This document shows, piece by piece, positions 3,701 to 40,021 of a stretch of 43,413 bases of DNA (positions within the stretch are counted from its first letter, which is position 1; every line of letters begins with the position of its first letter). Below the pieces are notes generated by a model that saw nothing but the letters and a program-made list of their open reading frames with translations, was not told the DNA's origin and made no database searches. Made by a program: the position numbers and the translations under genes. This stretch comes from a virus: positions 1-43,413 of the IMG/VR virus record IMGVR_UViG_3300044546_001663; one strand, given 5' to 3'.

Positions 3701-4608
3701 TTATTTGTTCCAGTTGTATTTCTTAATAGCGACCACCAACCAATTGCTGTATTGTTATCGCCCGATATATTATCAAAAAGCGCGCCGTCACCAAATGCAG
3801 AATTTTTTGAACCAGTTGTATTTGCTTGTAAACTATTGAATCCGACGGCTGTATTTTTATCGCCGGTTGTATTATTGTTTAAGCTGTTTGCACCAATTGC
3901 GGTCAAACCATTTGTATTATTATTTTTACCTGCTGCCCAGCCAACTGCCGTATTGCCATAGCCGTTGATGTTCTTAAAAAGACTGTCATATCCAACTGCC
4001 GTATTATTATTACCGTCGACATTATAATAAAGACTTTGATAACCAGCTGCTGTGTTGTTAACACCAACGGTATTTTCACGCATTGAATTTTGACCGGCGC
4101 TTGTATTAAAATTGCCACTTATATTAGAAAATAGCGAAGCTGCGCCCGTTGCAGTATTTGAAATACCAACAGTATTGCTGTGTAGAGCTCCATTGCCAAA
4201 CGCAGAATTTGAGTAACCGGACGTATTAGAAAAAAGCGAACGAAAACCATTAGCCGTATTCCATGCTCCAGCATTTTGTTGACCCGACTGATAACCTGAA
4301 AAAGTCGAATCAAAATTTTGTACTCTAAAAACAGAACTTAAATCTTCTACGACTGCTTCAAGAACGTCAATGTTATTACCTACTCTGCTCTCAAGACTGC
4401 TAACATTTGCGTTTGTCGTGTTTAAACTATTTTTAACAGCATTAATTTCTGTACTGTTAGTAATAGCCATACCCACAACATTGTCGATATGATTTGAAAT
4501 AGACTTTAAATTCCCATCCATTTCATCACTCGAAAGTGGGCTGCCCTTAACCGACGATGCGCTTGGTACAGTTGCGTTTGAATTTTTTCTGTAGAGAATA
4601 TTAGTCAT
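733..4608 (-). CDS. Long tail fibre / receptor-binding protein: 17-residue repeats, RCC1-like propeller, Gly-rich tip
   Basis: At 1291 residues this is the largest protein in the window and the probable distal tail fibre. Four regions are visible. Residues 1-107 are an N-terminal part with heptad-like stretches, probably the attachment end. Residues 115 to about 508 are about 22 copies of a 17-residue unit of the form NTAVG..SL..NTTG, like YadA-type head or fibre-shaft repeats. Residues about 565-1060 are repeated blades of the form LYTWG.N..GQ.G, typical of RCC1 beta-propellers. Residues 1075-1291 form a glycine-rich C-terminus (GGGGGW, GGGGAG) resembling the receptor-recognising tips of T-even adhesins. 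The start overlaps the preceding gene by 4 bp. The specific receptor cannot be told. Confidence 0.85.
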   Translation of the reverse strand: MTNILYRKNSNATVPSASSVKGSPLSSDEMDGNLKSISNHIDNVVGMAITNSTEINAVKNSLNTTNANVSSLESRVGNNIDVLEAVVEDLSSVFRVQNFDSTFSGYQSGQQNAGAWNTANGFRSLFSNTSGYSNSAFGNGALHSNTVGISNTATGAASLFSNISGNFNTSAGQNSMRENTVGVNNTAAGYQSLYYNVDGNNNTAVGYDSLFKNINGYGNTAVGWAAGKNNNTNGLTAIGANSLNNNTTGDKNTAVGFNSLQANTTGSKNSAFGDGALFDNISGDNNTAIGWWSLLRNTTGTNNTAVGMSALSQNTTGVEITAVGQESISKNTTGRSNTAVGAKSLYENTTGGWNIAVGTRSLHKNTEGHSNVAIGSDSLFNNTTGAWNVGIGNNALRENTTGGYNIGIGVEALRYTVGGGQAPTNEKHMYGHHNVAIGVTTLQQNTSGYLNTALGHSVLKSNTTGALNTAVGHVALNACTTGTYNTAVGVSAGANITTGSNNVVIGGNDGASIATSNNNIILSDGSGNIRASCNAAGVWDFKSDVFEKNKITYLSKSGYNHLSMILNDRLYSTAGSTGSYSDCTSGRGLNGSLIHFGVDNFQPIHFPNIGAERKIISSGGTGYQVQWALFDNGNLYTWGLNSNGQCGVGDYFPRPLPVLSATNVKEVFSHPTNGDIDVTHTRLFYLSNSGELFGCGYNAHGALGIGNTTTTIPSWTKINVPGLTASTPLKLFNLGSWVGCTVLFLNGKIYVTGYNGYGQLGTYDTNSLTTFTDVTSNWVQTTVDMLPGDTSANITDIKVSGGFGYYSTQNPQSSVTMLIKHQGRDHGYLRTCGNNTWGQRGTNEGLTNFSVPASPMIPNAYSRSRVLDFAVFGGGPATVYAMTMTESNGFTAGIDNTGGNSLYTWGYNDFGQIGRPVTSSTNAIPAWAAGNVAALHCNGMSEHSSSHYSHGFYTDNSGQLWAAGYNVQGCLGNGSTFASNNAFTKVLLPAGEEVVDLGWYSTTGGGRILLARTRQENLYAWGYNGQHGITPWQGGNVPTPILVRLPTMNKVQPKNRLPTYVYRNPAGSTVQTLNLKTEAIKLGWDGHSDFETFIIINDGIIGSNTAGDYALDTSDGWPAPVFNDTVTKNQILIINRGYIVGRGGRGSNWNGTSSTYTSERQSPEIDGGPALIARTRILIDNSNGTIAKGGGGGWSVWQGWSNGARYVYDAGGGGAGSPPGAAGIKGISPNPAPQPGTLTKGGLDYTDGKGGKDLGIPGYTENEENRVRPTITGDSFITWINKGTGLLGPIT
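3084..4266 (-). repeat. About 22 tandem 17-residue repeats within the tail fibre gene
   Basis: Translation shows a 17-residue period (xxNTAVGxxSLxxNTTG), with one copy interrupted by an insertion near GGGQAP. Nucleotide identity between copies is partial, so this is an old, diverged tandem array encoding a fibrous shaft, not a recent DNA duplication. Confidence 0.85.
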
Positions 4609-26784: not shown

Positions 26785-28065
26785 TTAATCTTGAAACAAT
26801 TCAAGCAGACCACGTTCTTTTTCAATGTAATTTCTAAAATAGTTTTTCGCTATTTCATACTTCATACGAATTGTTAAAAACGGTTTGTTCGTGTCTTCAC
26901 GAATAATCGTAATTTTTGGCAGACTAGATGAACCAACAGAATATGCTGTTTTGAATTTGAGTTTATTGAATCGTCGTTTAAATTCATCGTCAATTACGAT
27001 TTGGTGATAACCACCAGATTTTGTTGTTGACAACGACACGAGTGATATATCTTTGTCATCGCCTACCATAAAATGCTTTATACTATCAAAAAACGAAACC
27101 GAGTCATTTGCGATTTTATTCGATGCGTATGAATAAACTACTTGAGCAGCGTGTTTCGTATTTTCGGCAATGCTTTTTTTCGTATTCATCATTTCATGCT
27201 CAAATTCATTTTTGATGCTTGATATATCAATATTGAATTTTGAAAAAAGTGAACTAAGCTTATTCCAGTCGCCACCGCCAATTTGTCCAAATTGTTTTGA
27301 ACCAAATTTAAGTGAAAATGACATTGCATCTATTGTCTTTTTTGTGTCATGATTAAAAATTAAGATGTCTGATTTTGTTCCTGTTTGATCAAGTGGTCCG
27401 TTTGCCTGAACTTCAACATGGTTTGATTCATTATTAATATAGAGAGCCCGCGCTAGTTTTTCTATATTTTCAGAATTAGAAAATGCAACTGATCCAGACA
27501 GTACTCCGTTGATATCACCGTGTGATGATTTTAATAGAGCTTTATAATTAGCATTGCCAAGTGCTATACGCACTCCAATATTGTCTGAGTTCTTGTATAC
27601 ATCCGACACAACTTTAGAAAATTGTACCAGCTTTACATTTTTCTTTCCCGGCACGTTCTTGGCTGTTGCATTTTTTAGTTCTTGTAATGTTTCCCAAACA
27701 TCTTCAGGTGTTATTTTTTCAATTCCCGTTTTTGTTCTGGCAATAAGTTTAGAAAAAAGCGCTGCAGCAAATACTGCTTCTGCAATATCGCCTTTATTTC
27801 CTTTATTTGCCTTTACATCCAAGTAGAATGTTGGCTTTAATATCGTCATTCTTCCAATTGATGAGGATTTATTTTCCCAAAAAGCGCCGTATTCTTCTAA
27901 CTCTTTGATAATATCTTGTAAAACCATTTTTCGTGCAGTATCAGTAGAAAAATCTGATCGAAGCACATATGTATTGCCTGAACCTTTTGTTAACTGTTCA
28001 CTGCTATAACCAAGCTTTAAAATAGAGTTTAAAATAGCTTGTGTGTTTGCTGCCGTTTTTAACAT
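26785..28065 (-). CDS. Conserved phage protein, possible nuclease-like fold, next to DNA ligase
   Basis: This 426-residue protein overlaps the ligase by 7 bp. Around residues 90-115 it has NKGNKGDIAEAVFAAAL, and around 225-262 KSDILIF followed by FSLKFGSKQFGQ. A 'D...(I/V)..S.K.GS' strand pattern with an upstream acidic 'G.iaEa' helix recalls PD-(D/E)XK-type nucleases, though no canonical D/ExK is present. I think similar proteins occur in other aquatic T4-like phages, with no assigned function. Coupling to ligase suggests a DNA end or repair role. This is inference. Confidence 0.5.
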   Translation of the reverse strand: MLKTAANTQAILNSILKLGYSSEQLTKGSGNTYVLRSDFSTDTARKMVLQDIIKELEEYGAFWENKSSSIGRMTILKPTFYLDVKANKGNKGDIAEAVFAAALFSKLIARTKTGIEKITPEDVWETLQELKNATAKNVPGKKNVKLVQFSKVVSDVYKNSDNIGVRIALGNANYKALLKSSHGDINGVLSGSVAFSNSENIEKLARALYINNESNHVEVQANGPLDQTGTKSDILIFNHDTKKTIDAMSFSLKFGSKQFGQIGGGDWNKLSSLFSKFNIDISSIKNEFEHEMMNTKKSIAENTKHAAQVVYSYASNKIANDSVSFFDSIKHFMVGDDKDISLVSLSTTKSGGYHQIVIDDEFKRRFNKLKFKTAYSVGSSSLPKITIIREDTNKPFLTIRMKYEIAKNYFRNYIEKERGLLELFQD

Positions 28066-29894
28066 AGTTTGAATGAGCTTAAAAATTCATCTGGAGTTAT
28101 GATTTTAATTCCGCGTTCTCTAGCTTTTTTAATTTTGCTTGAACTGCTAGACGGATCTTTTGTTACTAGTATTGTTGTTTTTGACGTTACGCCATCTTCA
28201 ACAACACCACCAGCTGAAATAATCATTTCAAGTTGATCTGGTTTAAATCTAAATCCAGTTGCACAAATTATTTCGCCTGACATGTGTCCCGAATGTACGA
28301 TGCGCTCTGCAGTCTGATTAAATGAAACAAATTCTTGAATAAGTGTATATTGTGAAATAGCATGCTTATAATTCTCAATTATAACTTCTGCAGATGTTGT
28401 ATCAAAACCACGAAGAGCTAAAATATCATCTTTTACAAAGCTGCCATTTAAGAATTTTTCTATGCCAACTCCATCAATCAGTGCACGGAGTTTTCTCTCT
28501 CCAATGCCTCGACCAAACGAATCAAGCGATGCGAAAAGTCTAGCAGGATCAACTGACGAGATTTTTTCCTGAAAAATGTTCCAGGCCTTTTTACCATTTA
28601 CACCTAAAATTTGAACGAAAAACTGTTCAGATGAATTGAATACATCTACTGCGTTTTTAACACCTGCGTCATATAGTTTTTCAGCATTCTTTGGACCAAT
28701 AAATTCTACTTCTAGTTTATTGAAAAAATAGTCTAATTTTTTAAGTTCGCGCTGACGTTCAAAACCAGACATTTGAATCAGTTCAACACCATTAGCATCC
28801 CAAGTTGAATGAGGAACAGGATCTGGTTCAACTGGAGCAATTACAGAACTTACACAAGGAATAACATCGCCTTGCCGAGTTACAGTTACTATTGCACCAG
28901 GTCCAATACCATTATCAAAAATATTTTTCGCATTATAACCACTTGCTTTTGAAATAGTAACACCACCAATTTGTACTGGCTCAAACCACACTACTGGTTT
29001 TAGCAGACCGCCTTTACTGCAATTCCACTCAACCGATTTAACAGTTGTTGTTTCTGATGTAGATGGCGGCTTAATTTTTATTGCATACGTTGGATTAAGA
29101 TCATCAGCATCAACTGTTGGGCGATTTTCAATGTTTGCTTCTACAACAACTCCGTCTAGTTCATACGGAGAATCATTTATCATGATCTTTAGTAAAGATT
29201 GCAACGGCAAATACTCTGCTGTATTTTGCGCAATAATATACTTAGGAGTTTTAAAATTAAAAGACGCGAGAGTATCAATCATACTGCTCTTTGAGCCAAC
29301 GTAGTCAATTATTTCAAATGCGACAAAATCAATATAAGGATAGATTTCTGCAATGCCAATTGAACCATTTAAAAAACCTGCAATAAAATTACGAGAGTTT
29401 GCAAAAGTTTTTCCTGTTTTAGATTCAGCAATTGATTTTACTGTTAACCAATCACATTTTTTAATGATTAATTCACCACGAACAAGGCAATTGATTCCAA
29501 TAAATTTTGGAATCGACCGCATTCTTACTGTATGACGCGAATTGTTTGCACCAAGCAGTCCATTGCCCCGACTAAAACTTTCATAAAATTTACCGTCTTT
29601 GTACGACACTAGAACACTATTGCCATCCAACTTTTCCATTAATACACGATCACCTAAGAATTTGCGATTCCAATTATCAAGTTCGCGTTGATTATGAACT
29701 TGATTTAAACTTCCCATCATAATGGGTAATTGTACTTTACCACCGCGTACTTCTGCTCCAACTTGCAGTAGAATTTCTGGATTTGTTTTTATCAATTCTC
29801 TTTCAAGATGATCAAACGCGTCGTCACACATTATAGGATCGCCAGCATAGTACGATTCTTTTGCGTTGTGGTATAGTTGAATTTTAGAGATCAT
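28059..29894 (-). CDS. ligA: NAD+-dependent DNA ligase (LigA-type), zinc finger lost
   Basis: At 611 residues this is near LigA length (about 670). The Ia-like start (YHNAKESYYAGDPIMCDDAFDHLE) is present, then adenylation motif KLDG with Lys88, SRGNG, VRGEL, ELDGVVVE and YAIKIKP. The OB fold reads GAIVTVTRQGDVIPCV. HhH repeats and a C-terminal BRCT domain (about 535-611, GFRFKPDQLEMIISAGG) follow. The four zinc-binding cysteines usually after the OB fold are missing (HSTWDANGVEL). It seals nicks in place of the ATP-dependent T4 gp30 type. The nuclease-like gene follows with overlap. Confidence 0.9.
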   Translation of the reverse strand: MISKIQLYHNAKESYYAGDPIMCDDAFDHLERELIKTNPEILLQVGAEVRGGKVQLPIMMGSLNQVHNQRELDNWNRKFLGDRVLMEKLDGNSVLVSYKDGKFYESFSRGNGLLGANNSRHTVRMRSIPKFIGINCLVRGELIIKKCDWLTVKSIAESKTGKTFANSRNFIAGFLNGSIGIAEIYPYIDFVAFEIIDYVGSKSSMIDTLASFNFKTPKYIIAQNTAEYLPLQSLLKIMINDSPYELDGVVVEANIENRPTVDADDLNPTYAIKIKPPSTSETTTVKSVEWNCSKGGLLKPVVWFEPVQIGGVTISKASGYNAKNIFDNGIGPGAIVTVTRQGDVIPCVSSVIAPVEPDPVPHSTWDANGVELIQMSGFERQRELKKLDYFFNKLEVEFIGPKNAEKLYDAGVKNAVDVFNSSEQFFVQILGVNGKKAWNIFQEKISSVDPARLFASLDSFGRGIGERKLRALIDGVGIEKFLNGSFVKDDILALRGFDTTSAEVIIENYKHAISQYTLIQEFVSFNQTAERIVHSGHMSGEIICATGFRFKPDQLEMIISAGGVVEDGVTSKTTILVTKDPSSSSSKIKKARERGIKIITPDEFLSSFKLC

Positions 29895-30178: not shown

Positions 30179-31180
30179 CTATTCATAAGTCTTTAGACAT
30201 TCAGCGACTTGGACTGCACCAATATTTTTAGATTTTGATTCCGTCATAATGTCGCACGTATCTAAAAAAGCCAGTGCCCAATTATTTAATTTTTTATGAT
30301 TGTAGAATTCACTATGCGCTCTGAGTTTACTGCGTGGAGCGTGTTTCAACAATTCTTCTAATTGAGGTCTCTGTTCAGAAAAATGTTGTAGGTATTGCCA
30401 ATCGCTTTGGCTGTAGTGAATAACTGGTCTGTGTCCTTGCCAACTATCGCGTACTGTCTGCAATCTACTGTCGTTGGGGTCAATGTATTCGCCGGTGTTA
30501 ATAAAATGATGATGAATGTCTAGCACAATGCCAACATAAGGTGCAAGTGGTAACAGCGCATCTAGCCCTGCTTGGTATTCGTCATTTTCAAGTGTCAACG
30601 AACTCCGCAGTACAGGACTCATTTGATTGTACGCAGTTAAAAAACCGTCAACACCTAGCTTGCCACTTAAATGTATATTGATCTTAAAGTCTAGTCGACT
30701 CTTGCCATACCCCATCCACTCTGCCATTAGTGCATGATACTCAAGTTCTTCTAAACTATTGCTAACAATACCAGGATTGTTGCTAACAATACAGCAAAAC
30801 TGACCTGGATGAAAACTAAGTCGAACGCCATTGGATCTAGCAAGTTCACCAATTTTTGCAAACTCACGTTGTAGATAGCCTTGAATATTTTTATTCTGAT
30901 AAAAATATGACCAGTCTGGATGAGTATAAACGGGAAGTACGTCACTTGTAATACGTACCATTCTAAACAGTTCAGGCATTTTGGCTACAGCACTGACCAA
31001 ATTATACACAGCTGATGTGTTGTGCAACACAAGTTCTTCTAGTTTAGATTCTGCAACTTGTTTGTTTTGACGTTTGAGCCAAGAAATTGTTGTTGATTTT
31101 GTTGTTGCACTCACAACAGATCGAACTGTGTTAGAGCCATCAATTTCACTAAGCTTGCAAGCAAAACCTATACGTTTCAT
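30179..31180 (-). CDS. uvsE: UV damage endonuclease UvdE/UvsE
   Basis: This 333-residue TIM-barrel protein opens with IGFACKLS ('iGyac.' of UvdE). It carries LSFHPGQF.CIVSNNPGIV...SLEELEYHALMAEWMG, LTLENDE, IVLDIHHHFINTGEY, IHYSQSDW and RAHSEFYNHK, supplying the His/Asp/Glu ligands of the three-metal site. UvdE nicks 5' of pyrimidine dimers and other lesions; T4 instead uses DenV glycosylase. The ATG at 31180 is preferred over an in-frame GTG at 31219, because GGAG lies 5 bases upstream and the promoter's predicted start is near 31201. Confidence 0.9.
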   Translation of the reverse strand: MKRIGFACKLSEIDGSNTVRSVVSATTKSTTISWLKRQNKQVAESKLEELVLHNTSAVYNLVSAVAKMPELFRMVRITSDVLPVYTHPDWSYFYQNKNIQGYLQREFAKIGELARSNGVRLSFHPGQFCCIVSNNPGIVSNSLEELEYHALMAEWMGYGKSRLDFKINIHLSGKLGVDGFLTAYNQMSPVLRSSLTLENDEYQAGLDALLPLAPYVGIVLDIHHHFINTGEYIDPNDSRLQTVRDSWQGHRPVIHYSQSDWQYLQHFSEQRPQLEELLKHAPRSKLRAHSEFYNHKKLNNWALAFLDTCDIMTESKSKNIGAVQVAECLKTYE

Positions 31181-31207
31181 AATAACTCCATTTATAACAA
31201 TAGAGTT

Positions 31208-31236
31208 ATTATACGACACAAATGAATAAAAGTAAA
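31208..31236 (-). promoter_or_regulatory. Early-type promoter of uvsE
   Basis: TTTACT (231-236), 17-bp spacer, TATAAT (208-213) on the minus strand, about 28 bp before the chosen uvsE start codon. This fixes the start because the longer frame would begin upstream of the transcript. Confidence 0.8.
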
Positions 31237-31270: not shown

Positions 31271-31501
31271 TTATAGTAATGACCTAACTATACCTATCAA
31301 ATAAATCAAAACTAAACCACTGTTTACCGCAATCATAGCATTGTCTTTAATTCGTATTGCCCACCAAATAAACAACAATGACCCAATATTCATAGTGTAT
31401 ATGTTATACGGGGTTAGTTGTAATGACGTCATCAGCGATCCTGAAAGAACAAAGATGGCTGCTATCCATTCTATTGTAAGAGTTAAATTAAATTTTTTCA
31501 C
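31271..31501 (-). CDS. Small three-TM membrane protein (DUF6552/SemiSWEET-like)
   Basis: This 76-residue protein has three hydrophobic helices: IEWIAAIFVLSGSLMTS, IYTMNIGSLLFIWWAIR and MIAVNSGLVLIYLIGIV. The pattern (a 'lN...n.lgs.lW...' middle helix, charged turn 'IKDNAM', 'NS.l..iY..Gi' last helix) resembles small PQ-loop-like proteins such as DUF6552. It begins with GTG overlapping the upstream stop (GTGA), so translation is probably coupled. Substrate and role unknown. Confidence 0.55.
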   Translation of the reverse strand: MKKFNLTLTIEWIAAIFVLSGSLMTSLQLTPYNIYTMNIGSLLFIWWAIRIKDNAMIAVNSGLVLIYLIGIVRSLL

Positions 31502-31974
31502 GATAGTTTTTTATTTTTCTTAACAACTTCTATTAATTCAAATTCAGGCAAAGCGTGATGAAATTTTATTTTTCCAACAATAGTGGATTTGTTTATTTTT
31601 GTACTTACCCACTTGTTAATATACTGATCTGACAACAGAGCGCCGCTTGAAAAAATCAAACATGCCTCAATATAGTTCATAGCCGACTTTGTTTGGCAAA
31701 GATAAAGAATCTCACGCTTGAAACCATCTGTGCTTTTTTTAACAAGTTCTTTTATCTCGTCAGAAGATGACCAATATTCTTGCCAATCGGATTCAACAGT
31801 TTTTCTAAGACGTTTTCCACCAACAATTTTAGTTCGTTTGAATGTTAGTTTCTTTTGACCAATGTACAGCCGACCGTCTGGACAAGTTATACGATAAACA
31901 AAACCCTCATAGCCTAAAGGCATTTCAACAATTGGTTCGCCTTTATAGATCCAAGGACTATTCGTCGAGGTCAT
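31498..31974 (-). CDS. GIY-YIG-like endonuclease
   Basis: This 158-residue protein starts its catalytic region at about residue 24 with GFVYRITCPDGRLYIGQKK, a variant GIY-YIG motif (xVY...YIG). An Arg in FKRTK, a 'W..Y.SSS.E.K.L' segment, FKREILYLCQTK and the putative catalytic Glu in NYIEACLIF follow. The layout matches phage GIY-YIG proteins that cut DNA, some of them homing enzymes. No intron or split gene is adjacent, so it may act on host DNA or be a free-standing homing enzyme. It overlaps the zinc-ribbon gene by 17 bp. Confidence 0.65.
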   Translation of the reverse strand: MTSTNSPWIYKGEPIVEMPLGYEGFVYRITCPDGRLYIGQKKLTFKRTKIVGGKRLRKTVESDWQEYWSSSDEIKELVKKSTDGFKREILYLCQTKSAMNYIEACLIFSSGALLSDQYINKWVSTKINKSTIVGKIKFHHALPEFELIEVVKKNKKLS

Positions 31975-32163: not shown

Positions 32164-33171
32164 TCACATTTTTAAGAATTTACGTGCAGTTGATAGAGCC
32201 GACGAAACAGCTTGGTCCATGTTTATATAAACGTACAGCCCGCATCGTCCAATAAACTTCATCTTAGGATGCTTTAGCTCTGCGTATTTTTTATAGATTT
32301 CTCGGTTTGTACCGCTTACATCTTTTACTGGATAGTATCGCTCGCGATTATTATCTCTATAATCACACGGCTCTTCATATGTTACAGTGGTAAAGTCAGG
32401 ATTAGTACCGTGTTGTGGAATATTCTTCCACTCAGTCATTCGAGTATACGGTCCAGAGTGTGTAAAATTAACCGTTGCTGTTGGAAGTAATTTTGGATGT
32501 GGCAGCGTGACTGTATGAAACTTAATAGAACGATACGGCAGCGCTCCAAAGCTATAATTATAATATTCATCAATAGGCATTGAATTAAAAATAAAATCAT
32601 ATTCTGTTTCCATGTATATGGAGAATTCAGTACCTAATTTTACTGAAATATTTTCATGCCGCAGTAAATTCTCAAATAATTCTGTATAACCATTACTTGG
32701 CATTGCTTGATATTCATCATCTGGAAAATAGAGTTCATTCATGTCATCGCGAACCGGAACTCTGTTAATAACCGACGGATCAATTTCTTCAATGTCAACA
32801 CCCCACATTTTTTTCGTGTATGGACGAATAAAAGTATCAACGATATTTTCTTTACCGACTATTCTAGCAGTTTCTGCATTGACTGGAAGTGTAACGTACT
32901 GACCATTATCAAGAACAGCTTTTACACGATGCTGATAGTCTGTCCATTCCGTGAACCGTGAAAGGTAATCAAATACTTCTTTGTTTCTCGTATGAAATAA
33001 ATGTGGTCCATATTTGTGAACACGAATACCAACATCATTGACAGAATCAAAACAATTTCCAGCAATGTGGTCACGTCGATCGATCATGGTAATGATGTGA
33101 CCAGCTTCTGCTAGTTCACGCGCAATAACGGCACCAGAGAAACCTGCACCTACTATCAAAATATTCATCAT
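32164..33171 (-). CDS. glf: UDP-galactopyranose mutase
   Basis: This 335-residue flavoprotein interconverts UDP-galactopyranose and UDP-galactofuranose. Visible motifs are the FAD-binding GAGFSG (residues 8-13), IDRRDHIAGNCFD, YGPHLFHT, then VPVRDD, MPSNGYTELFENLL (the 'GYt.lfe.mL' block), GPYTRMTEWKNIP and the C-terminal GRCGLYVYINMDQAVSSAL. Bacterial enzymes are 360-390 residues, so it is slightly short, but all family blocks are present. GGAT precedes the start. It is 23 bp after a glycosyltransferase gene, arguing for a galactofuranose pathway. Confidence 0.92.
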   Translation of the reverse strand: MMNILIVGAGFSGAVIARELAEAGHIITMIDRRDHIAGNCFDSVNDVGIRVHKYGPHLFHTRNKEVFDYLSRFTEWTDYQHRVKAVLDNGQYVTLPVNAETARIVGKENIVDTFIRPYTKKMWGVDIEEIDPSVINRVPVRDDMNELYFPDDEYQAMPSNGYTELFENLLRHENISVKLGTEFSIYMETEYDFIFNSMPIDEYYNYSFGALPYRSIKFHTVTLPHPKLLPTATVNFTHSGPYTRMTEWKNIPQHGTNPDFTTVTYEEPCDYRDNNRERYYPVKDVSGTNREIYKKYAELKHPKMKFIGRCGLYVYINMDQAVSSALSTARKFLKM

Positions 33172-33194
33172 TTATATCCTTTAAGTAATTTCGG

Positions 33195-34358
33195 TTATTT
33201 AGGTGCTTTTAAGATTTCTTGAATTTCTTTTCGTTGAACAGCTTTGTCTAGCGGATGAATCTTGTACAGCGCTGAACGCTGCGCGGCTGCTAATTCAGCA
33301 AGTTCTTTATCAGACATGTTAATAATATCAGAAGCTTTAATGCTAGCTAGACGTTCATCATTATAATAAACCATCATTTCTTTTTTATCACCAATAAGAA
33401 TAGCACCTGCGTCTGCGCATTGAAGTGGTCTGGCTCTCCACCATCCGCTGCCTGCATGTTCGTAACCCGGCATCAAGCAACCCCAGTTACGAGCAAAAGT
33501 TTCGCACATTTTGTCTTCTGTTAGACGTTTTTGGCTGTCAGCTTTTGAACCGTACATGTCTACTTTCCAGCCCTGAATATAGGTCTCTTCGGCATCCAAA
33601 TCTTTAACAGATACTCCTTGAGACTTTAACCATTTTTTAGTCTTTGACTGTACTAGTGATGCAAAATTAAAACGACGTTCTTTTGTATACGTTTGAGCAG
33701 TGTCGTCTAGTGTAAACAGTGCTGAAAAATCAGGGTCTTCTTCACCTTCATGACCAACATCATCAGGACGCCGATTGCGATGATATGGGTTTGGATTGTA
33801 CACGAAAAGTCTGTCTGCAGAGTATCCAATACCGTCAAAAATTAAATGTGGACCGTGTTTTTCTGGATCCTCAAGATGCCCTGTTTGGAATGCTGAAACA
33901 AGGATTCGACTTTTTTTACCAATAATAACATTGATTGCTGAGTTGAAGTCTTTTAAAAATGGTTCGAGTTCTTCTCTTGTTTTTTTATTAACGCCAAGAA
34001 TAAAATCACAAAAGAGTTGTTCAGGGTCAAGACATTTTTGAACTCCCTTAAAAAGATCTGGTGCTTGCCAATCGTCGTATGCAATAATAGAATCAGGTCT
34101 GTTTGCAATTGCCCACAGTCCGTTGAACAATTTGGTTGTCACCAACTGTCGAGGTCCGGCAATAAAAACAATAACGTCGTCATATTTTGACAGATCTTCA
34201 CCAATTGCAACTTCACGTTGTTCTACTGTGTATCCCATATCGTGCAAACAATTATAAAGAGAATATGAAGATGGAACAACTTTCAATTGTTGCCGCAAAT
34301 AAAACTTGCGAATACATTGATTATTATTCATTCCGGTGATTAAGATTTTTTTGCTCAT
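33195..34358 (-). CDS. GT-B glycosyltransferase, beta-glucosyltransferase-like; candidate DNA sugar transferase
   Basis: The N-terminal half of this 387-residue protein resembles T4 beta-glucosyltransferase: a VPSS motif (28-31) followed by SLYNCLHDMGYTVE, KYDDVIVF, and IIAYDDWQAP (Asp95/96, like catalytic Asp100 of T4 bgt in FTDIRLPF). The C-terminal half has a GT-B donor-site look: LMPGYEHAGSGWWR followed by ARPLQCADAGAIL (about 296-321), comparable to 'RVWE..A......L'. A PYHRNRR patch (191-197) could bind DNA phosphates. It lies between galE-like and glf genes with a 4-bp overlap, so UDP-Gal or UDP-Galf is the probable donor. The acceptor is inferred. Confidence 0.7.
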   Translation of the reverse strand: MSKKILITGMNNNQCIRKFYLRQQLKVVPSSYSLYNCLHDMGYTVEQREVAIGEDLSKYDDVIVFIAGPRQLVTTKLFNGLWAIANRPDSIIAYDDWQAPDLFKGVQKCLDPEQLFCDFILGVNKKTREELEPFLKDFNSAINVIIGKKSRILVSAFQTGHLEDPEKHGPHLIFDGIGYSADRLFVYNPNPYHRNRRPDDVGHEGEEDPDFSALFTLDDTAQTYTKERRFNFASLVQSKTKKWLKSQGVSVKDLDAEETYIQGWKVDMYGSKADSQKRLTEDKMCETFARNWGCLMPGYEHAGSGWWRARPLQCADAGAILIGDKKEMMVYYNDERLASIKASDIINMSDKELAELAAAQRSALYKIHPLDKAVQRKEIQEILKAPK

Positions 34359-35227
34359 TTTAACTCCATGCTATAAGCTGATTGACACATATCTCTAAGG
34401 GTGTAGTCTATTTTAACATATTTAGAGGTTGAATTTATACGAAGTTCTGCAGGATCGCCGCTTCGTCGTGGTCCAATATCTACTTTAAAATCAACTCCAC
34501 TTACAATTTTCATCATTTCAATAACTTGTAGATTTGTATAGGTTTTACCCGAACCAATACAATGATAATCTATATTTGTGTGCTCAGCATCAAGTGCAGC
34601 ACGAACAATAGCATTTGAGAGATCTACAACATGAACATAATCACGAATACAAGTTCCGTCAATTGTAGGATAATCATCACCGAACAGTGTCATTTTGTCA
34701 CGTTTGCCTGCAGCTGTTTCTGCTGCTACTCTTATGATGTGTGTAGACGGTCCAAACTGTCTGAATAAACCATTACTGCCAGCAACGTTGAAAAACCTAA
34801 AGATTGTCCATTTCTTTGCAAGTTCTTTTATTACATCCTCAGCAGCATGCTTTGATTTTGCATAAGGAGAAATTGGATCAAAGCAACCTGCAGTTGAAGC
34901 AAAGATAAAATGATCAGCGTTAAAATTTTTCAGTACATTTATAGTACCAAACAGATTTGTATCATAGTATGCGGTTGGACAAGTCATGCTCTCACCAACT
35001 TGGATTAAACCTGCAAGATGTACGACAACATCATAGTGCTTATCTAGAGGACTTCTAAAATCTCTTACATCACACTGAATAATGCCTGAACAATATTGTA
35101 CTATATTATTTCGGTTTACGATATCAATATCAATTGCATCTACCTGAAAACCTGCAGATTGCAGTGCATGAACTGTGTGCGCACCAATATAACCTGTTGC
35201 ACCAGTAATAAGCGCCGTTTTTGACAT
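34355..35227 (-). CDS. galE: UDP-glucose 4-epimerase-like (extended SDR)
   Basis: This 290-residue enzyme has the Rossmann GATGYIG (9-15), Asp pair for NAD (DAIDID), VHLAGLIQVGES, FASTAGCF and YAKSK (Tyr/Lys catalytic pair), then NVAGSN, DYPTIDGTCIRDYVHVVDL (the GalE signature 'DGT.iRDYiHv.DL') and IGSGKTYTNLQVI. The product UDP-galactose is the substrate of the mutase two genes downstream. It is shorter than E. coli GalE (338 residues), so a related 4-epimerase is possible. It is transcribed from the promoter at 35266-35295. Confidence 0.88.
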   Translation of the reverse strand: MSKTALITGATGYIGAHTVHALQSAGFQVDAIDIDIVNRNNIVQYCSGIIQCDVRDFRSPLDKHYDVVVHLAGLIQVGESMTCPTAYYDTNLFGTINVLKNFNADHFIFASTAGCFDPISPYAKSKHAAEDVIKELAKKWTIFRFFNVAGSNGLFRQFGPSTHIIRVAAETAAGKRDKMTLFGDDYPTIDGTCIRDYVHVVDLSNAIVRAALDAEHTNIDYHCIGSGKTYTNLQVIEMMKIVSGVDFKVDIGPRRSGDPAELRINSTSKYVKIDYTLRDMCQSAYSMELK

Positions 35228-35252
35228 ATGTGTTTATTGTTTAAGATGTTAA

Positions 35253-35295
35253 AATGCTAAATTGAATTATACATCAATTTAGCATTAAAAGTAAA
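35253..35295 (-). promoter_or_regulatory. Early-type promoter with a 13-bp inverted repeat around the -10 box
   Basis: TTTACT (290-295), an 18-bp spacer and TATAAT (266-271) on the minus strand. A perfect 13-bp inverted repeat (253-265 with 274-286) flanks the -10 box, which sits in its 8-base loop. It could be an operator or a terminator of the upstream hydroxymethylase transcript. Confidence 0.75.
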
Positions 35296-35297
35296 AT

Positions 35298-36056
35298 TTA
35301 CTTGCTGTACGGACTGTTTGGATAGAGACGAGCGTATTCTGGTTTTGTTATTGAAACGTGTCCTTTTTCATATGCATCAACCAAATAAAAGTTTTTGCTG
35401 TACACATGCAAATTTTGAACTTGCCAAACAATATTTCCAATACTAATGTGATCGGCACTGCATGCTGTACTGCGATTATAATCTTCAACAATTTCAAACA
35501 TAACGTGGCGTTGCCATGCCCAGTCATTACGATATCCTGCCCACGCATCGTTTGATCGCATTTGTACAACACTGTGCAGTCTATTATCACGAATATAGTA
35601 CGTTACTGCATTGGTGCAAATAAAATCTGATTTGCCACATTCATTATATTCAACCCAAATTGATGGGCGAGTATATACCATTGTTGCACGTCGGGTATCT
35701 TTATTGGACAAGAGTTCACGAACAGTGGATTCAAACTGTTGGAAATACTTTTTAGAGTAAATCAACAGACCATAATTAGAATTAATATTACCATGCTGGT
35801 CAGCTGCATATTTCCAAGCAACTGGAGCAGGTCGTTCTGTTCCATAAATGTCGTTGATATTGGACGACATTGATTTATACCACTTCAGTTCAGCATCAAT
35901 GTATTCTTCAGATGGACTGCCAAAAATTGCAGTTTCGTCTGCAACAAAACTAGCGCCAATCATTTCAATAGTTTGCTGCCCAGTTTTGTCAATAGTAAAG
36001 CGTTCAGATTTTAATTCACTAATAAAATATTGACGAATATCAGATACATGCATCAT
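35298..36056 (-). CDS. 42: dCMP hydroxymethylase (T4 gp42)
   Basis: This 252-residue thymidylate-synthase-fold enzyme (T4 gp42: 246) converts dCMP and methylene-tetrahydrofolate to 5-hydroxymethyl-dCMP. It aligns closely with T4 gp42: VDKTG/IDKTGQQTIEMIGASFVAD, INSNYG, RRATMVYTRPS, FICTN with catalytic Cys147, VVQMRSND, then GYRND. Asp178 there corresponds to T4 Asp179, which selects cytosine; thymidylate synthases have Asn. LHVYS.NFYLVD completes the site. The start overlaps the preceding gene (ATGA). The phage DNA is therefore expected to contain 5-hydroxymethylcytosine. Confidence 0.95.
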   Translation of the reverse strand: MMHVSDIRQYFISELKSERFTIDKTGQQTIEMIGASFVADETAIFGSPSEEYIDAELKWYKSMSSNINDIYGTERPAPVAWKYAADQHGNINSNYGLLIYSKKYFQQFESTVRELLSNKDTRRATMVYTRPSIWVEYNECGKSDFICTNAVTYYIRDNRLHSVVQMRSNDAWAGYRNDWAWQRHVMFEIVEDYNRSTACSADHISIGNIVWQVQNLHVYSKNFYLVDAYEKGHVSITKPEYARLYPNSPYSK

Positions 36057-36370
36057 ACTACTGAGTCTTTCTTAAAACGATCATCACATTGTGGAGCATC
36101 TTTAGTAAGCTGCAGAAGAATCATTAATTGCGTTGTGGCATGAGCTAAGTGAGGCAGTCCAGATTCTGGATCAAGATCTTCACCGTCTATCCAAGCATTT
36201 AAATGACGTTGAATAGAACCATAATGGCGAGTCCAGCCGTACAAATCAGAATCACGTCTCCAATTGTTTTGACCATATTTCTTGGCACCAAATCCAAATA
36301 CACGCGAAATTTCAAGTAAAGGAAATGCTGGAACAAGTTGAAGTTGAGGTTTATCGGTATCAAATTTCAT
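36053..36370 (-). CDS. MazG-like dNTP pyrophosphohydrolase (dATP/dGTP diphosphohydrolase N-terminal family)
   Basis: This 105-residue protein has the family pattern KFDTDKPQLQLVP, ISRVFGFGAKKYGQNNWRR, YGSIQRHLNAWIDGEDLDPESGLPHLAHATTQLMILL. The E/D-rich helices 'GE..D.ESG..HL.HA' would bind Mg2+ and triphosphate. Members are annotated as dATP/dGTP diphosphohydrolases of the all-alpha NTP-pyrophosphatase type. Here it shares a transcript, with ATGA overlap, with dCMP hydroxymethylase. It may therefore act as the dCTPase that supplies dCMP and clears dCTP, as T4 gp56 does. That assignment is inference. Confidence 0.75.
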   Translation of the reverse strand: MKFDTDKPQLQLVPAFPLLEISRVFGFGAKKYGQNNWRRDSDLYGWTRHYGSIQRHLNAWIDGEDLDPESGLPHLAHATTQLMILLQLTKDAPQCDDRFKKDSVV

Positions 36371-36403: not shown

Positions 36404-36434
36404 ATTATACTACATTTCTGGAGTTAAAAGTAAA
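36404..36434 (-). promoter_or_regulatory. Early-type promoter upstream of the dNTPase/hydroxymethylase genes
   Basis: TTTACT (429-434), a 19-bp spacer and TATAAT (404-409) on the minus strand, overlapping the 3' end of the glutaredoxin gene. The spacer is longer than the usual 17, so it may be weaker. Confidence 0.65.
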
Positions 36435-36670
36435 CTTTTTAGGTCAGATAGAGACCCAACATATTCACCCGTAAGATGCGCAATAACTGGAGCAGATCGC
36501 ACATTTGGATAACGACTCTTAAGATCAGCGATTGCAATTTTTTCTTGATCTGCAGAGATTGCTTGACCAACATCAATGCTAACTTCTCTAAAATAGATAT
36601 TATGTGACTTCAGCAAAGTCTTTGCTACATCGCACTGTGGACAGTTGGGTTTTGAATAAACTACAAACAT
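36410..36670 (-). CDS. nrdC: Glutaredoxin (NrdC/NrdH-like)
   Basis: This 86-residue protein starts at ATG 36670, 1 bp after the nrdB stop, with MFVVYSKPNCPQCDVAKTLL. The CPQC active site and a later SAPVIA (cis-Pro) place it in the thioredoxin fold. It would reduce the phage ribonucleotide reductase, as T4 NrdC does. The longer upstream frame runs inside nrdB and was rejected. It ends at TAG 36410 within the promoter of the next unit. Confidence 0.9.
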   Translation of the reverse strand: MFVVYSKPNCPQCDVAKTLLKSHNIYFREVSIDVGQAISADQEKIAIADLKSRYPNVRSAPVIAHLTGEYVGSLSDLKSLLLTPEM

Positions 36671-36671
36671 A

Positions 36672-37769
36672 TTAAAAATCCGTTTCAAAAGTTGTTGAAT
36701 CATCATCTCGTTGAACAACATTGACCTTGTACTGGTTGTTGTCCTGTTCTTGAGGAGCCGACTGTACATTACCAATATTAATCCAATCATCTAAATGCGG
36801 CATTGGATTCTTTGTTGGTAATTTATGTTCACATTCAATATCGAGAAATTTATATACATCACGCGCATTAAAAAGTACCCATTGCTTTACAAGATCCCGA
36901 CTTGTGCCCAACAGTGATCGACCTTCACTAAAAATATAGTCTGTCCAACGCAGCTCTTGTGCAACAACTGCATCTAAAAGCTGTTTAATATCCGCACGTT
37001 TGCGCGTATAGCAATCTTTGCCTTCTTGTGTTAGCAAGAGTTCACGCAAAACAGTTTTATCTAGTTGAGCATGAACTTCCAATTCATCCTGAGCAATTTT
37101 TTGAACTGCCTTGCCAATAGACTGAAACAATCCACTCGAACAGATTGTAAACGTAATAGCAAAACTAGCCATAAACTGAATGCGTTCAAGGATCAGCAAT
37201 GCAACTACACCCATGAAAACTTTATCGTATGCTGATGCTGGAGTTTCTAGTCCAAGAGCATAACGATGCGAAGTCGTATAGAGTTCTGAGAACACTTTAG
37301 ACGTTTCGTTCAGTCGTTCTAGCGGTTCTTTTGCTTCAAGAACTGTTTTTAACACCTCTTGCGGAGAGTCAAAACTCATACGAACAATTTCTGAATATGT
37401 AGTAGCATGTACAACTTCATTGTCAGAAACACGTTGCCAAGCAGCCCAAAGCGAAGAATCTGTAATGAATGGAGCAAGAACTGGAGCAATGCTACGCGAT
37501 GCAACAGAATCAGCCTCCCACTGCCATGCAAGAGTTCGAATCATCATATCGTAAGTAGACTTTGGACATGTTTTAAAGTCCAAATTGCACTGACTGTAAT
37601 CAAATTCGTTTGCATCCCAGTCCAACGATTTCATTTCTTTATACAGACTCCAGATTTCTGGATATTGAATATTGAGTGTATCAAACAGACCTGGTTCTGG
37701 TCCAAAAAACAATGGCTGTTTGTTTGTATACTCTTCTGTTGTTTTGTTGGTATTAAAAACTTGATTCAT
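36672..37769 (-). CDS. nrdB: Ribonucleotide reductase class Ia, beta subunit NrdB
   Basis: This 365-residue protein forms the radical-bearing subunit. The di-iron ligands and radical Tyr are visible: WEADSVASR (Asp), DNEVVHATTY (Glu, His and the Tyr), ERIQF (Glu), and AQDELEVH (Glu, His). The C-terminal DDDSTFETDF would dock into NrdA. The ATG at 37769 overlaps the nrdA stop by 4 bp and is preferred; another at 37787 has its ribosome binding site only 1 bp away. Confidence 0.95.
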   Translation of the reverse strand: MNQVFNTNKTTEEYTNKQPLFFGPEPGLFDTLNIQYPEIWSLYKEMKSLDWDANEFDYSQCNLDFKTCPKSTYDMMIRTLAWQWEADSVASRSIAPVLAPFITDSSLWAAWQRVSDNEVVHATTYSEIVRMSFDSPQEVLKTVLEAKEPLERLNETSKVFSELYTTSHRYALGLETPASAYDKVFMGVVALLILERIQFMASFAITFTICSSGLFQSIGKAVQKIAQDELEVHAQLDKTVLRELLLTQEGKDCYTRKRADIKQLLDAVVAQELRWTDYIFSEGRSLLGTSRDLVKQWVLFNARDVYKFLDIECEHKLPTKNPMPHLDDWINIGNVQSAPQEQDNNQYKVNVVQRDDDSTTFETDF

Positions 37770-40021
37770 AGTTTGCAGCTTTCGCATTCTCCATTTTCTT
37801 CTAAATCGTTTACAGCATTTTCTTCTGTTGTTAAATCAACACCATTGCTGGTATTAGAGTTAATGTAGTAACGTGTCTTCAATCCATACTTAACAATGTC
37901 AAGATAATCTGTAATCATTGTAGAGCTGGATATTTTATCACTGCCTTTAATATTAACGTACAGGTCGCTGCTGATTCCTTGATCTGTCCATTTCTGCCAA
38001 ATAGCATAGAACTTAATCATGTCCAAGCTTGGAATATCCCATGCAGATTGATAGTGCTTTTTCAACTTTGTACCTTCTGGAGCAACCCAATAGTTTACAC
38101 CAGTATCGTTGGTTTTCATGATACTAATTTCACGAATTGGATATGGACCGTTAGTGGTACCGCTTGAAAGAGATGAACTTTCTCCTGGCATAAGTGCACT
38201 AACTACACTGTTACGAATACCACCATTTGCAATAATCTTTTCACGCAGCGATTCCCAATCACGTTTATTTTCTACAGAGACAATCTGATCTACTCTGCGC
38301 TCATACGTATCAATTGGTAACCAGCCTGTTGGCCAGTTCGTCTTGTGCATCCATGGAGCATTGCCAAGTTCTTGACCTAATTTCAAGGATGCATTGATCA
38401 AATGCCACATATGTGTTTCAGCCATTTCATGAACAAAGTCTCGACCGTCTTGTGTATCAAAACGTTTATGATTCTTTGCCATTTGATGTGCAAGACCCAT
38501 AACACCAACACCCGCACTTAAACGTGACTTTGCTGTATCGTCAAGATTCTTGAAAACATAATCGCTTTTATGAATACATACATCAATCATCTTTAATGCA
38601 TAGTAGGCAACGTCTGCGTACATTTCATCAGATTCAACATTAGAAACAACGATTCCAGCAAGTGAACACAGTCCAATTTCCGGTCCGCCTTCTTCGTACG
38701 GTTCATATAGTTCTTTAACTGAATTGAATGCCTTGGTCGGAATGCTAATTTCTGCGCAGAGGTTGGAACTATAAATCTTGTCTTTAAACGGAGTATGGTG
38801 ATTCATTGTATCCATTTGATGCAAATAGTGAACACCGGTCTCGTACGACTCTGTAAGCGCACTAAGAGCAATATCACGAGCATTTAATTTCATTGGCGCG
38901 CGCTGCTCCCATTCGGCATAAAGCTTTTCAAAATTACTCTGATCTTTTTCATACATTGCCTCGTACAATTTAGCATTATTATAATATGAAAAAGTTGCAA
39001 ATGTCTCGTTCTTTGCAACTTTACGCGCAAATAGTTTATTTGAACCAAAGTTATAATGACAACCAGCAATGCGCTTTGTTTGTGGTGTCATTGGATTGCG
39101 TAACTTTTGAATTACCTCAACTTCAGGATCAAAAGCTGAATAATAAACTGTAGAAGCACCGCCTCGACCATTTTGTAGATTAGCGCCAATTGCACCAACC
39201 ATTGCACGATAATATGGCAACTTTCCTTGATGTTGAATCATACCACCACGAACAGGATCGCCAAGAGAACGAGTCTTAATATGAGTACCAATACCAGCGC
39301 TCATACAAGTCATCATATAGGCAATATGATCACCTGCTGCAAGTGACTGTGCTGTGTCGTCAGTAGTATAGAGACAACAAGATGCATAGCCATTCAATTT
39401 TGTACCAAGATTGGTAAAATTAGGAGTTGGCGCATTCAGACGATTGTGTGAAAAATGTTCATACCACCGACGCAGATGATGCAGTCTGTTTGATTTTTCA
39501 TTTTCAGCCAGTGCCATTGCCATTCGCATATAGACAAACTGTGGAGTTTCATATTCCTTTTTAGCTACTTTATTCTTAAGAGCGTACTTGCTGCGAATCT
39601 GATGAACTTGATAGTGAGGATATTTTAGATCTTGCTTATGATCAATAATAGATTCAATTTCAGAGTACTCATCTTCTGAATAGTTTAATTTTACCATCAA
39701 ACCAGCATCAAATAGAGTTTTGTGCAGCGATTTTACAGTTGGATGTTTACCATTGTAAAATAAACGTTCAAGCAAAGCAACATACAGCCGACCAGCCATG
39801 CGGTTATGTTCCCAAGTTTTTTGCTGCAGACAGACACTGATCAGTGTTTCCTGAAGTTGAACGCTTGTGGTTTCTTCACCAAGTTTGCTAACTGCATCAA
39901 TAACAATAGAAGACCAGTCAAGATGACCAAGTGTCTTGGCTGCCCAAACACCCCAACCATTTACTTTTTCTGGATTAAATTCTTCACGTGTTCCGTTTCT
40001 TTTAATAATTGTTTTGATCAT
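37766..40021 (-). CDS. nrdA: Ribonucleotide reductase class Ia, alpha subunit NrdA
   Basis: This 751-residue enzyme (T4 NrdA: 754) converts ribonucleoside diphosphates to deoxy forms. An N-terminal ATP-cone (MIKTIIKRNGTREEFNPEKV) precedes the catalytic barrel, with SCCLYTTDDT, NGRGGAST, NLCAEI, the MPGESSS block near 600 and CESC at the C-terminus for disulfide exchange. Order nrdA-nrdB-glutaredoxin with 4-bp overlaps indicates one operon feeding DNA synthesis. No intron or inteins are seen. Confidence 0.96.
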   Translation of the reverse strand: MIKTIIKRNGTREEFNPEKVNGWGVWAAKTLGHLDWSSIVIDAVSKLGEETTSVQLQETLISVCLQQKTWEHNRMAGRLYVALLERLFYNGKHPTVKSLHKTLFDAGLMVKLNYSEDEYSEIESIIDHKQDLKYPHYQVHQIRSKYALKNKVAKKEYETPQFVYMRMAMALAENEKSNRLHHLRRWYEHFSHNRLNAPTPNFTNLGTKLNGYASCCLYTTDDTAQSLAAGDHIAYMMTCMSAGIGTHIKTRSLGDPVRGGMIQHQGKLPYYRAMVGAIGANLQNGRGGASTVYYSAFDPEVEVIQKLRNPMTPQTKRIAGCHYNFGSNKLFARKVAKNETFATFSYYNNAKLYEAMYEKDQSNFEKLYAEWEQRAPMKLNARDIALSALTESYETGVHYLHQMDTMNHHTPFKDKIYSSNLCAEISIPTKAFNSVKELYEPYEEGGPEIGLCSLAGIVVSNVESDEMYADVAYYALKMIDVCIHKSDYVFKNLDDTAKSRLSAGVGVMGLAHQMAKNHKRFDTQDGRDFVHEMAETHMWHLINASLKLGQELGNAPWMHKTNWPTGWLPIDTYERRVDQIVSVENKRDWESLREKIIANGGIRNSVVSALMPGESSSLSSGTTNGPYPIREISIMKTNDTGVNYWVAPEGTKLKKHYQSAWDIPSLDMIKFYAIWQKWTDQGISSDLYVNIKGSDKISSSTMITDYLDIVKYGLKTRYYINSNTSNGVDLTTEENAVNDLEENGECESCKL

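Follow-up and report, generated by a model that had tools for sequence, protein, structure and literature searches.

We analyzed a 43,413-base virus fragment from IMG/VR (IMGVR_UViG_3300044546_001663, positions 1–43,413; hereafter the window). It carries a compact minus-strand gene row running from 40021 to 32164 and comprising probable nrdA, nrdB, glutaredoxin, a pyrophosphohydrolase, a deoxycytidine monophosphate (dCMP) hydroxymethylase, a GalE-like epimerase, a glycosyltransferase (GT), and a UDP-galactopyranose mutase (UGM) (Table 1). T4-superfamily traits are evident in its structural proteins (baseplate, tail tube, and tail-tube cap) as well as in a late-promoter regulator and a single-strand binding protein of the gp32 type. 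A phage megablast with the window region returned zero matches. An original prediction had read the last five functions in line at 32164–36370 and proposed that they place galactofuranose on hydroxymethylcytosine in DNA. All five open reading frames are present on the minus strand and tightly packed, with 4-base overlaps between the pyrophosphohydrolase and hydroxymethylase genes and between the epimerase and GT genes; the row also reaches beyond these five, upstream into nrdA, nrdB, and glutaredoxin. Our analysis suggests that the five genes probably constitute a DNA hypermodification pathway putting galactofuranose on 5-hydroxymethylcytosine (hmC).

Sequence searches with the GT matched no Pfam family and no PDB entry (phmmer), did not place it in the T4 beta-glucosyltransferase (BGT) family (Pfam model, PDB phmmer), and led to a PHROG that carries no functional name. 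Its AlphaFold model, built from 46 sequences (mean predicted local distance difference test (pLDDT) 85.6, predicted template modeling (TM) score 0.88), matched T4 BGT best in a Foldseek search of the PDB. The top four hits were BGT structures (1j39, 1nzd, 1qkj, and 1bgu; E 1.5e-5 to 6.6e-5), ranking above small-molecule and other glycosyltransferases at moderate TM-scores (0.49–0.57). In the viral library, once relatives of the GT itself and one protein from a Gordonia phage are set aside, the next match was a 351-residue entry that, from its length and score, is presumably T4 BGT. The structure prediction and search thus uphold the original reading of a GT-B enzyme with BGT-like features, and the best matches were to BGT, not to a lipopolysaccharide (LPS) enzyme family. 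A profile–profile comparison with BGT gave E 1.2e-5, confined to the N-terminal 60 columns; the BGT profile is shallow, as a scan with T4 BGT brought in no more than five close relatives, and the match is N-terminal only. When GT and BGT sequences were aligned together, BGT Asp100 (the catalytic base, mutated in 1nzd) faced GT Asp96, invariant in all GT rows, and BGT Arg269 faced the invariant Arg310; identity is ~13%, and this residue mapping is therefore a working hypothesis. By structural class the GT falls with BGT, its nearest fold, and retains the Asp100 equivalent. The aligned residues would fit an enzyme of the BGT reaction type with a different donor. We propose the GT as an hmC-DNA galactofuranosyltransferase, and DNA is very probably what it glycosylates.

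The closest PDB chain to the window hydroxymethylase is T4 gp42 (1b49/1b5e), and the two residues singled out in the original prediction, Cys147 and the cytosine-selecting Asp178, indeed face the T4 Cys and Asp. In this family, which has the thymidylate synthase fold, the Asp stands where thymidylate synthases have an Asn that selects dUMP. This cytosine-type Cys/Asp pair occurs in every linked homologue with a readable site, down to 23–30% identity. Because the Asp178 equivalent is kept throughout, it argues for cytosine rather than thymine as the probable modified base in hydroxymethylase-linked phages. On account of the same Asp, a protein of Actinomycetia phage DSL-LC01 annotated as thymidylate synthase (L005:1–821) is more likely a dCMP hydroxymethylase. 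The predicted deoxynucleotide pyrophosphohydrolase also holds, with the refinement that the annotation of its family names dATP/dGTP, which leaves dCTPase activity of the window protein only a guess. Its homologues adjoin the hydroxymethylase in four loci (L057, L058, L061, and L062).

Both sugar-nucleotide enzymes were assigned to the families originally named. The best PDB matches of the epimerase are all UDP-glucose 4-epimerases; it has a short-chain dehydrogenase/reductase fold and the YxxxK motif (as YAKSK), and lacks a ~14-residue loop before that motif. We expect it to supply UDP-galactopyranose. The UGM has the FAD-binding GxGxxG motif and the catalytic Arg, Tyr, and Trp residues of its family, with Trp123, Arg137, Arg244, Tyr280, and Tyr315 invariant in an alignment of nine diverse UGMs. 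At the Asp351 position (Klebsiella numbering) it carries Asn, like the Deinococcus enzyme. It is ~30 residues short after the first FAD-binding part, as are most close relatives, and the UGMs of Aeromonas and Erwinia phages are longer than this form. By the known chemistry of their families, epimerase and mutase together would yield UDP-galactofuranose from UDP-glucose.

A GT-profile scan of the viral collection gave 185 matches, from which 80 contigs were kept, chosen on the GT alone. Contigs counted as testable with ≥1.3 kb downstream for UGM and ≥3 kb upstream for the hydroxymethylase. UGM was the next gene after the GT in 74 of 74 testable contigs (two or three of them with a few hundred bases in between), and 62 of 63 carried the hydroxymethylase, which lay within 3 kb in 57; many contigs are related, so these counts are not independent events. 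This recurrence excludes a chance arrangement. In the reverse direction, 58 of 69 testable loci selected on UGM had the GT directly upstream, and the remainder were glycan-type clusters, loci with UGM beside uvsX and no GT, or one case with a single intervening gene (L189). Relatives of the GT come almost exclusively from viral contigs: the viral collection gave 185, or 394 in a broader scan, versus 5 in genome contigs. Linkage to hydroxymethylase and UGM over so many viral contigs favors DNA glycosylation over LPS remodeling. In addition, a PF01467 cytidylyltransferase-like protein occurs near the GT in ~30 loci (e.g. L042:8732–9178), and a protein of ~270–300 amino acids (aa), glycosyltransferase-like by eye and with no Pfam match, lies near the cluster in ~20 (L087:6110–7009; L202:10605–11411); the latter could be a second sugar transferase.

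In marine relatives the gene order is DNA polymerase, hydroxymethylase, dCMP deaminase, (epimerase), GT, UGM, C5-methylase, uvsX, gp40-like, and gp41-like, with polymerase, uvsX, gp40-like, and gp41-like genes assigned by homology plus position. The T4 order is gene 42, b-gt, segA, uvsX. The GT lies between hydroxymethylase and uvsX in four relatives (L013, L037, L044, and L247), the window itself being without uvsX; because this order matches T4, the GT occupies the b-gt position. Distant lineages lend independent support to the GT–UGM linkage. The pair occurs in Aeromonas phages 25 and AS-gz and Erwinia phage FBB1, where it adjoins motA, its gene order is reversed, and gene 42 lies at another genomic site, as well as in DSL-LC01 and in large contigs (183–358 kb). 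A comparison of phage 25 with 44RR as a locus swap was uninformative (the 44RR locus holds a symporter plus a larger ORF233c).

In phage C48C1, a further such lineage, a Tet_JBP oxygenase directly precedes the GT–UGM pair, and no hydroxymethylase was found. A TET-type oxygenase as the usual partner of the pair was rejected: a scan with the C48C1 oxygenase gave 15 phage loci, none with the pair in the sequence available around them, so C48C1 is a single case. Relatives of this oxygenase were likewise absent from the 80 GT-selected contigs.

The broader GT scan added 21 contigs, 9 with UGM and 12 without. Hydroxymethylase was present in these 12 wherever there was enough upstream sequence. In a tree, the UGM-less GTs cluster as a single derived clade with strong support, separate from the rest. 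A single loss of UGM would most simply explain them, a reading limited by midpoint rooting and long branches. Members of this clade (L247:6790–10000, L250, L264, and L258) show the order hydroxymethylase–GT–uvsX, and the clade carries the N-terminal motif QQLQVAMCQYSLP versus QQLKVVPSHYSL. They may use UDP-glucose, UDP-galactopyranose, host UDP-galactofuranose, or a UGM encoded elsewhere, and the donor may therefore vary within the GT family.

In the pathway we propose, modeled on T4 for its nucleotide steps, the hydroxymethylase would make 5-hydroxymethyl-dCMP, which would be phosphorylated and then built into phage DNA. The GalE-like enzyme would convert UDP-glucose to UDP-galactopyranose, and the mutase would contract the ring to give UDP-galactofuranose. 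The BGT-like GT would then attach galactofuranose to DNA cytosines at their 5-hydroxymethyl group, where the sugar may shield phage DNA from host nucleases. Computation establishes which enzymes the hydroxymethylase and mutase are, with their catalytic residues, the family of the epimerase, the BGT-like fold of the GT, and the conserved linkage; from there we infer DNA as acceptor, galactofuranose as the sugar donated, its anomeric linkage, and a benefit against restriction. The galactofuranose step is probable on the strength of gene linkage and of the catalytic residues conserved in UGM.

Several observations weigh against this pathway. In six UGM-less contigs of up to 83 kb that retain the hydroxymethylase, UGM was found nowhere; Gualtarvirus GTs adjoin a sugar isomerase and an NTP transferase, not UGM; no phage epimerase was detected in the Aeromonas and Erwinia phages at the sensitivity used; and UGMs of the same kind also occur in phage glycan clusters. 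The donor-side residues Glu22, Arg191, and Arg195 of BGT are unconserved in the GT and Glu272 is mostly Gln, so BGT is no guide to the donor specificity of the GT. The window, a genome fragment, yielded no dNMP kinase, and the PF18909 pyrophosphohydrolase is the one candidate seen in it for hydroxymethyl-dCTP supply (dCTPase, dNMP kinase). Phage C48C1 has no recognizable C5 methylase and its oxygenase may therefore act on thymine; this phage is evidence for a DNA acceptor of the hydroxymethyl-pyrimidine type, not for cytosine in particular. Given the UGM-less clade and the Gualtarvirus neighbors, the link of the GT to DNA is stronger than its link to galactofuranose. Of the original proposal, DNA glycosylation is thus supported by the BGT-like fold and the linkage to hydroxymethylase and UGM, and galactofuranose is probable only, since one GT clade is without UGM.

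The same observations bear on other explanations. A DNA GT that uses UDP-glucose or UDP-galactopyranose, with UGM and epimerase as mere neighbors serving another pathway, would account for the GT clade that keeps hydroxymethylase and has no UGM, and for UGMs found elsewhere without the GT. We consider this unlikely, as UGM adjoins the GT in every testable GT-selected contig and in distant lineages, and as loss is the simpler reading of a single derived clade. Alternatively, the GT might put another furanose on hmC, with a UGM-like enzyme interconverting UDP-arabinopyranose and UDP-arabinofuranose or acting on another UDP-sugar; UGM does act on UDP-arabinopyranose. The Gualtarvirus relative, whose neighbors code for a SIS-domain isomerase and an NTP transferase in an arrangement like the RB69 arabinose locus, points the same way. 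Precedents for a pentose are the arabinosyl-hmC of RB69 (PMC6024577) and the pentose of Shewanella phage Thanatos (PMC12838424). This Gualtarvirus locus, in Morganella phage vB_MmoM_Rgz1 (L004:7366–10770), has a distant member of the GT family flanked by the SIS-domain sugar isomerase on one side and the NTP transferase on the other, by the DNA polymerase, and is a candidate pentosyl-hmC locus. For the window, a pentose is distinctly improbable: its epimerase is closest to UDP-glucose 4-epimerases, no gene for UDP-xylose or UDP-arabinose synthesis is seen in the cluster, and the GT family has no detectable relation to RB69 ORF003c. Homology to this arabinosyltransferase candidate was rejected at an hhalign probability of 0.4%, and the Gualtarvirus member had no BLAST similarity to it.

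Remodeling of host LPS, raised as an alternative in the original prediction, would divorce the sugar genes from DNA, as would remodeling of the capsule or decoration of the virion. In marine phages, close UGM relatives do lie amid small proteins that by eye are glycosyltransferase- or methyltransferase-like (L146, L150, L178, L185, and L195), perhaps clusters for surface or virion glycans. These clusters contain no GT of the window's type, and no such GT was seen alongside the UGMs of Rhizobium, Agrobacterium, and Ochrobactrum phages. The window UGM has nucleotide-metabolism and replication genes as neighbors, and the hallmarks of a surface-glycan cluster (several glycan glycosyltransferases, a flippase, and a polymerase around UGM) are absent. 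The GT folds most like a DNA-modifying enzyme, tracks the hydroxymethylase, and is nearly confined to viral contigs. On these grounds LPS or capsule remodeling was ruled out as the leading explanation, and we regard the whole surface-glycan or virion role as very unlikely. We give least credence to an active hydroxymethylase accompanied by a GT–UGM part that either lacks activity or targets free nucleotides, RNA, or protein. An hmC carbamoyltransferase that also works on 5hmdCTP and RNA provides a parallel for such substrates (PMC8670742), and the retention of open frames with conserved catalytic positions over many contigs speaks against this reading. A galactofuranosyl-hmC pathway thus remains the reading we prefer. 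More tentatively, and with rather more doubt than confidence, galactofuranosyl-hmC might be widespread in several T4-superfamily lineages through phage-specific BGT-like furanose-donor enzymes, mostly using UDP-galactofuranose and possibly an arabinofuranose donor in Gualtarvirus.

Within the window, the SegE-like nuclease adjoins the modification cluster, as T4 segA adjoins b-gt. Elsewhere this T4-superfamily phage encodes a UvdE-type UV endonuclease, an NAD-dependent DNA ligase, and a tail-spike-like protein (Table 1).

Table 1. Genes of the modification cluster and other features of the window, with the basis of each assignment.
Feature	Length (aa)	Position	Strand	Basis
Probable NrdA, ribonucleotide reductase large chain	751	37766..40021	−	Open reading frame directly upstream of nrdB; sequence and position
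NrdB, ribonucleotide reductase small chain		36672..37787	−	PF00268, E 2.6e-26
Glutaredoxin (nucleotide-supply context)		36410..36790	−	PF00462, E 2.3e-9
dNTP pyrophosphohydrolase-like protein	105	36053..36370	−	PF18909 dATP/dGTP diphosphohydrolase, E 4.3e-30; phrog_801
dCMP hydroxymethylase	252	35298..36056	−	PDB T4 gp42, E 1.7e-68; Cys147 and Asp178
UDP-glucose/galactose 4-epimerase-like protein	290	34355..35227	−	PF01370, E 2e-32; best PDB matches all GalE
GT-B glycosyltransferase (GT)	387	33195..34358	−	AlphaFold and Foldseek, linkage, alignment
UDP-galactopyranose mutase (UGM), short phage form	335	32164..33171	−	PF03275, E 1.4e-53; PDB UGM chains
SegE-like GIY-YIG homing endonuclease, flanking the cluster beside UGM		31498..31974	−	PF19835, E 1.4e-27
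UvdE-type UV endonuclease		30179–31219		
NAD-dependent DNA ligase		28059–29894		
Tail-spike-like protein	1291	733–4608		RCC1-type repeat family matches

The nearest known system is the T4 glucosyl-hmC pathway, whose gp42 is ~50% identical to the window hydroxymethylase and which shares the BGT-like fold and, in relatives of the window, the hydroxymethylase–GT–uvsX site; the window differs in its added mutase and epimerase, in a GT that Pfam and phmmer do not detect as BGT, and in other donor-side residues. RB69 likewise combines hydroxymethylase, GT, and sugar-nucleotide supply genes for a non-glucose sugar, but through a proposed arabinose-5-phosphate isomerase-like protein and ORF003c, which has no similarity to the window GT (PMC6024577). 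C48C1, with the GT–UGM pair directly behind its oxygenase, connects to TET/JBP phage hypermodification, whereas the window takes the dCMP hydroxymethylase route. The 5-hydroxymethylcytosine carbamoyltransferase found by MetaGPA follows the same logic, since its phage contig encodes a group-transfer enzyme as well as a dCMP hydroxymethylase; it transfers carbamoyl in place of a sugar and is biochemically proven (PMC8670742). Bacterial UDP-galactofuranose pathways for LPS or cell wall (GalE, Glf, galactofuranosyltransferase) share GalE and UGM with the window, which has, instead of a cell-surface galactofuranosyltransferase, a BGT-like and nearly virus-confined GT.

Glycosylation of hmC in T4-like phages is already known, with glucose in T4, arabinose in RB69 (PMC6024577), and a pentose in Thanatos (PMC12838424) as known or proposed cytosine sugars in the literature covered; added here are a sugar that is probably new and a GT family of its own. 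The open-access literature, a search that left subscription papers including Iyer et al. 2013 outside, held no report of galactofuranose on DNA, nor of galactofuranose or UGM tied to phage DNA modification. Petrov et al. (2010; PMC2993671) noted that genes 42 and 56 are present in Aeromonas phages 44RR, 31, and 25, which have no known glucosyltransferase, and left open whether another modification protects the DNA of such phages; phage 25 also encodes machinery that degrades DNA lacking modification; the main text of a later Tevenvirinae survey (PMC8056088) names no such GT gene. The GT–UGM pair is a candidate, testable answer to this question for phage 25. Since the gene set recurs in cultured Aeromonas and Erwinia phages, the proposed DNA sugar coat can be tested now. 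If the pathway is as proposed, a galactofuranosyl-DNA transferase would provide a tool for labeling hmC and a substrate for testing modification-dependent restriction. A furanose hexose would then join the short list of phage cytosine sugars, and this enzyme family would receive a name.

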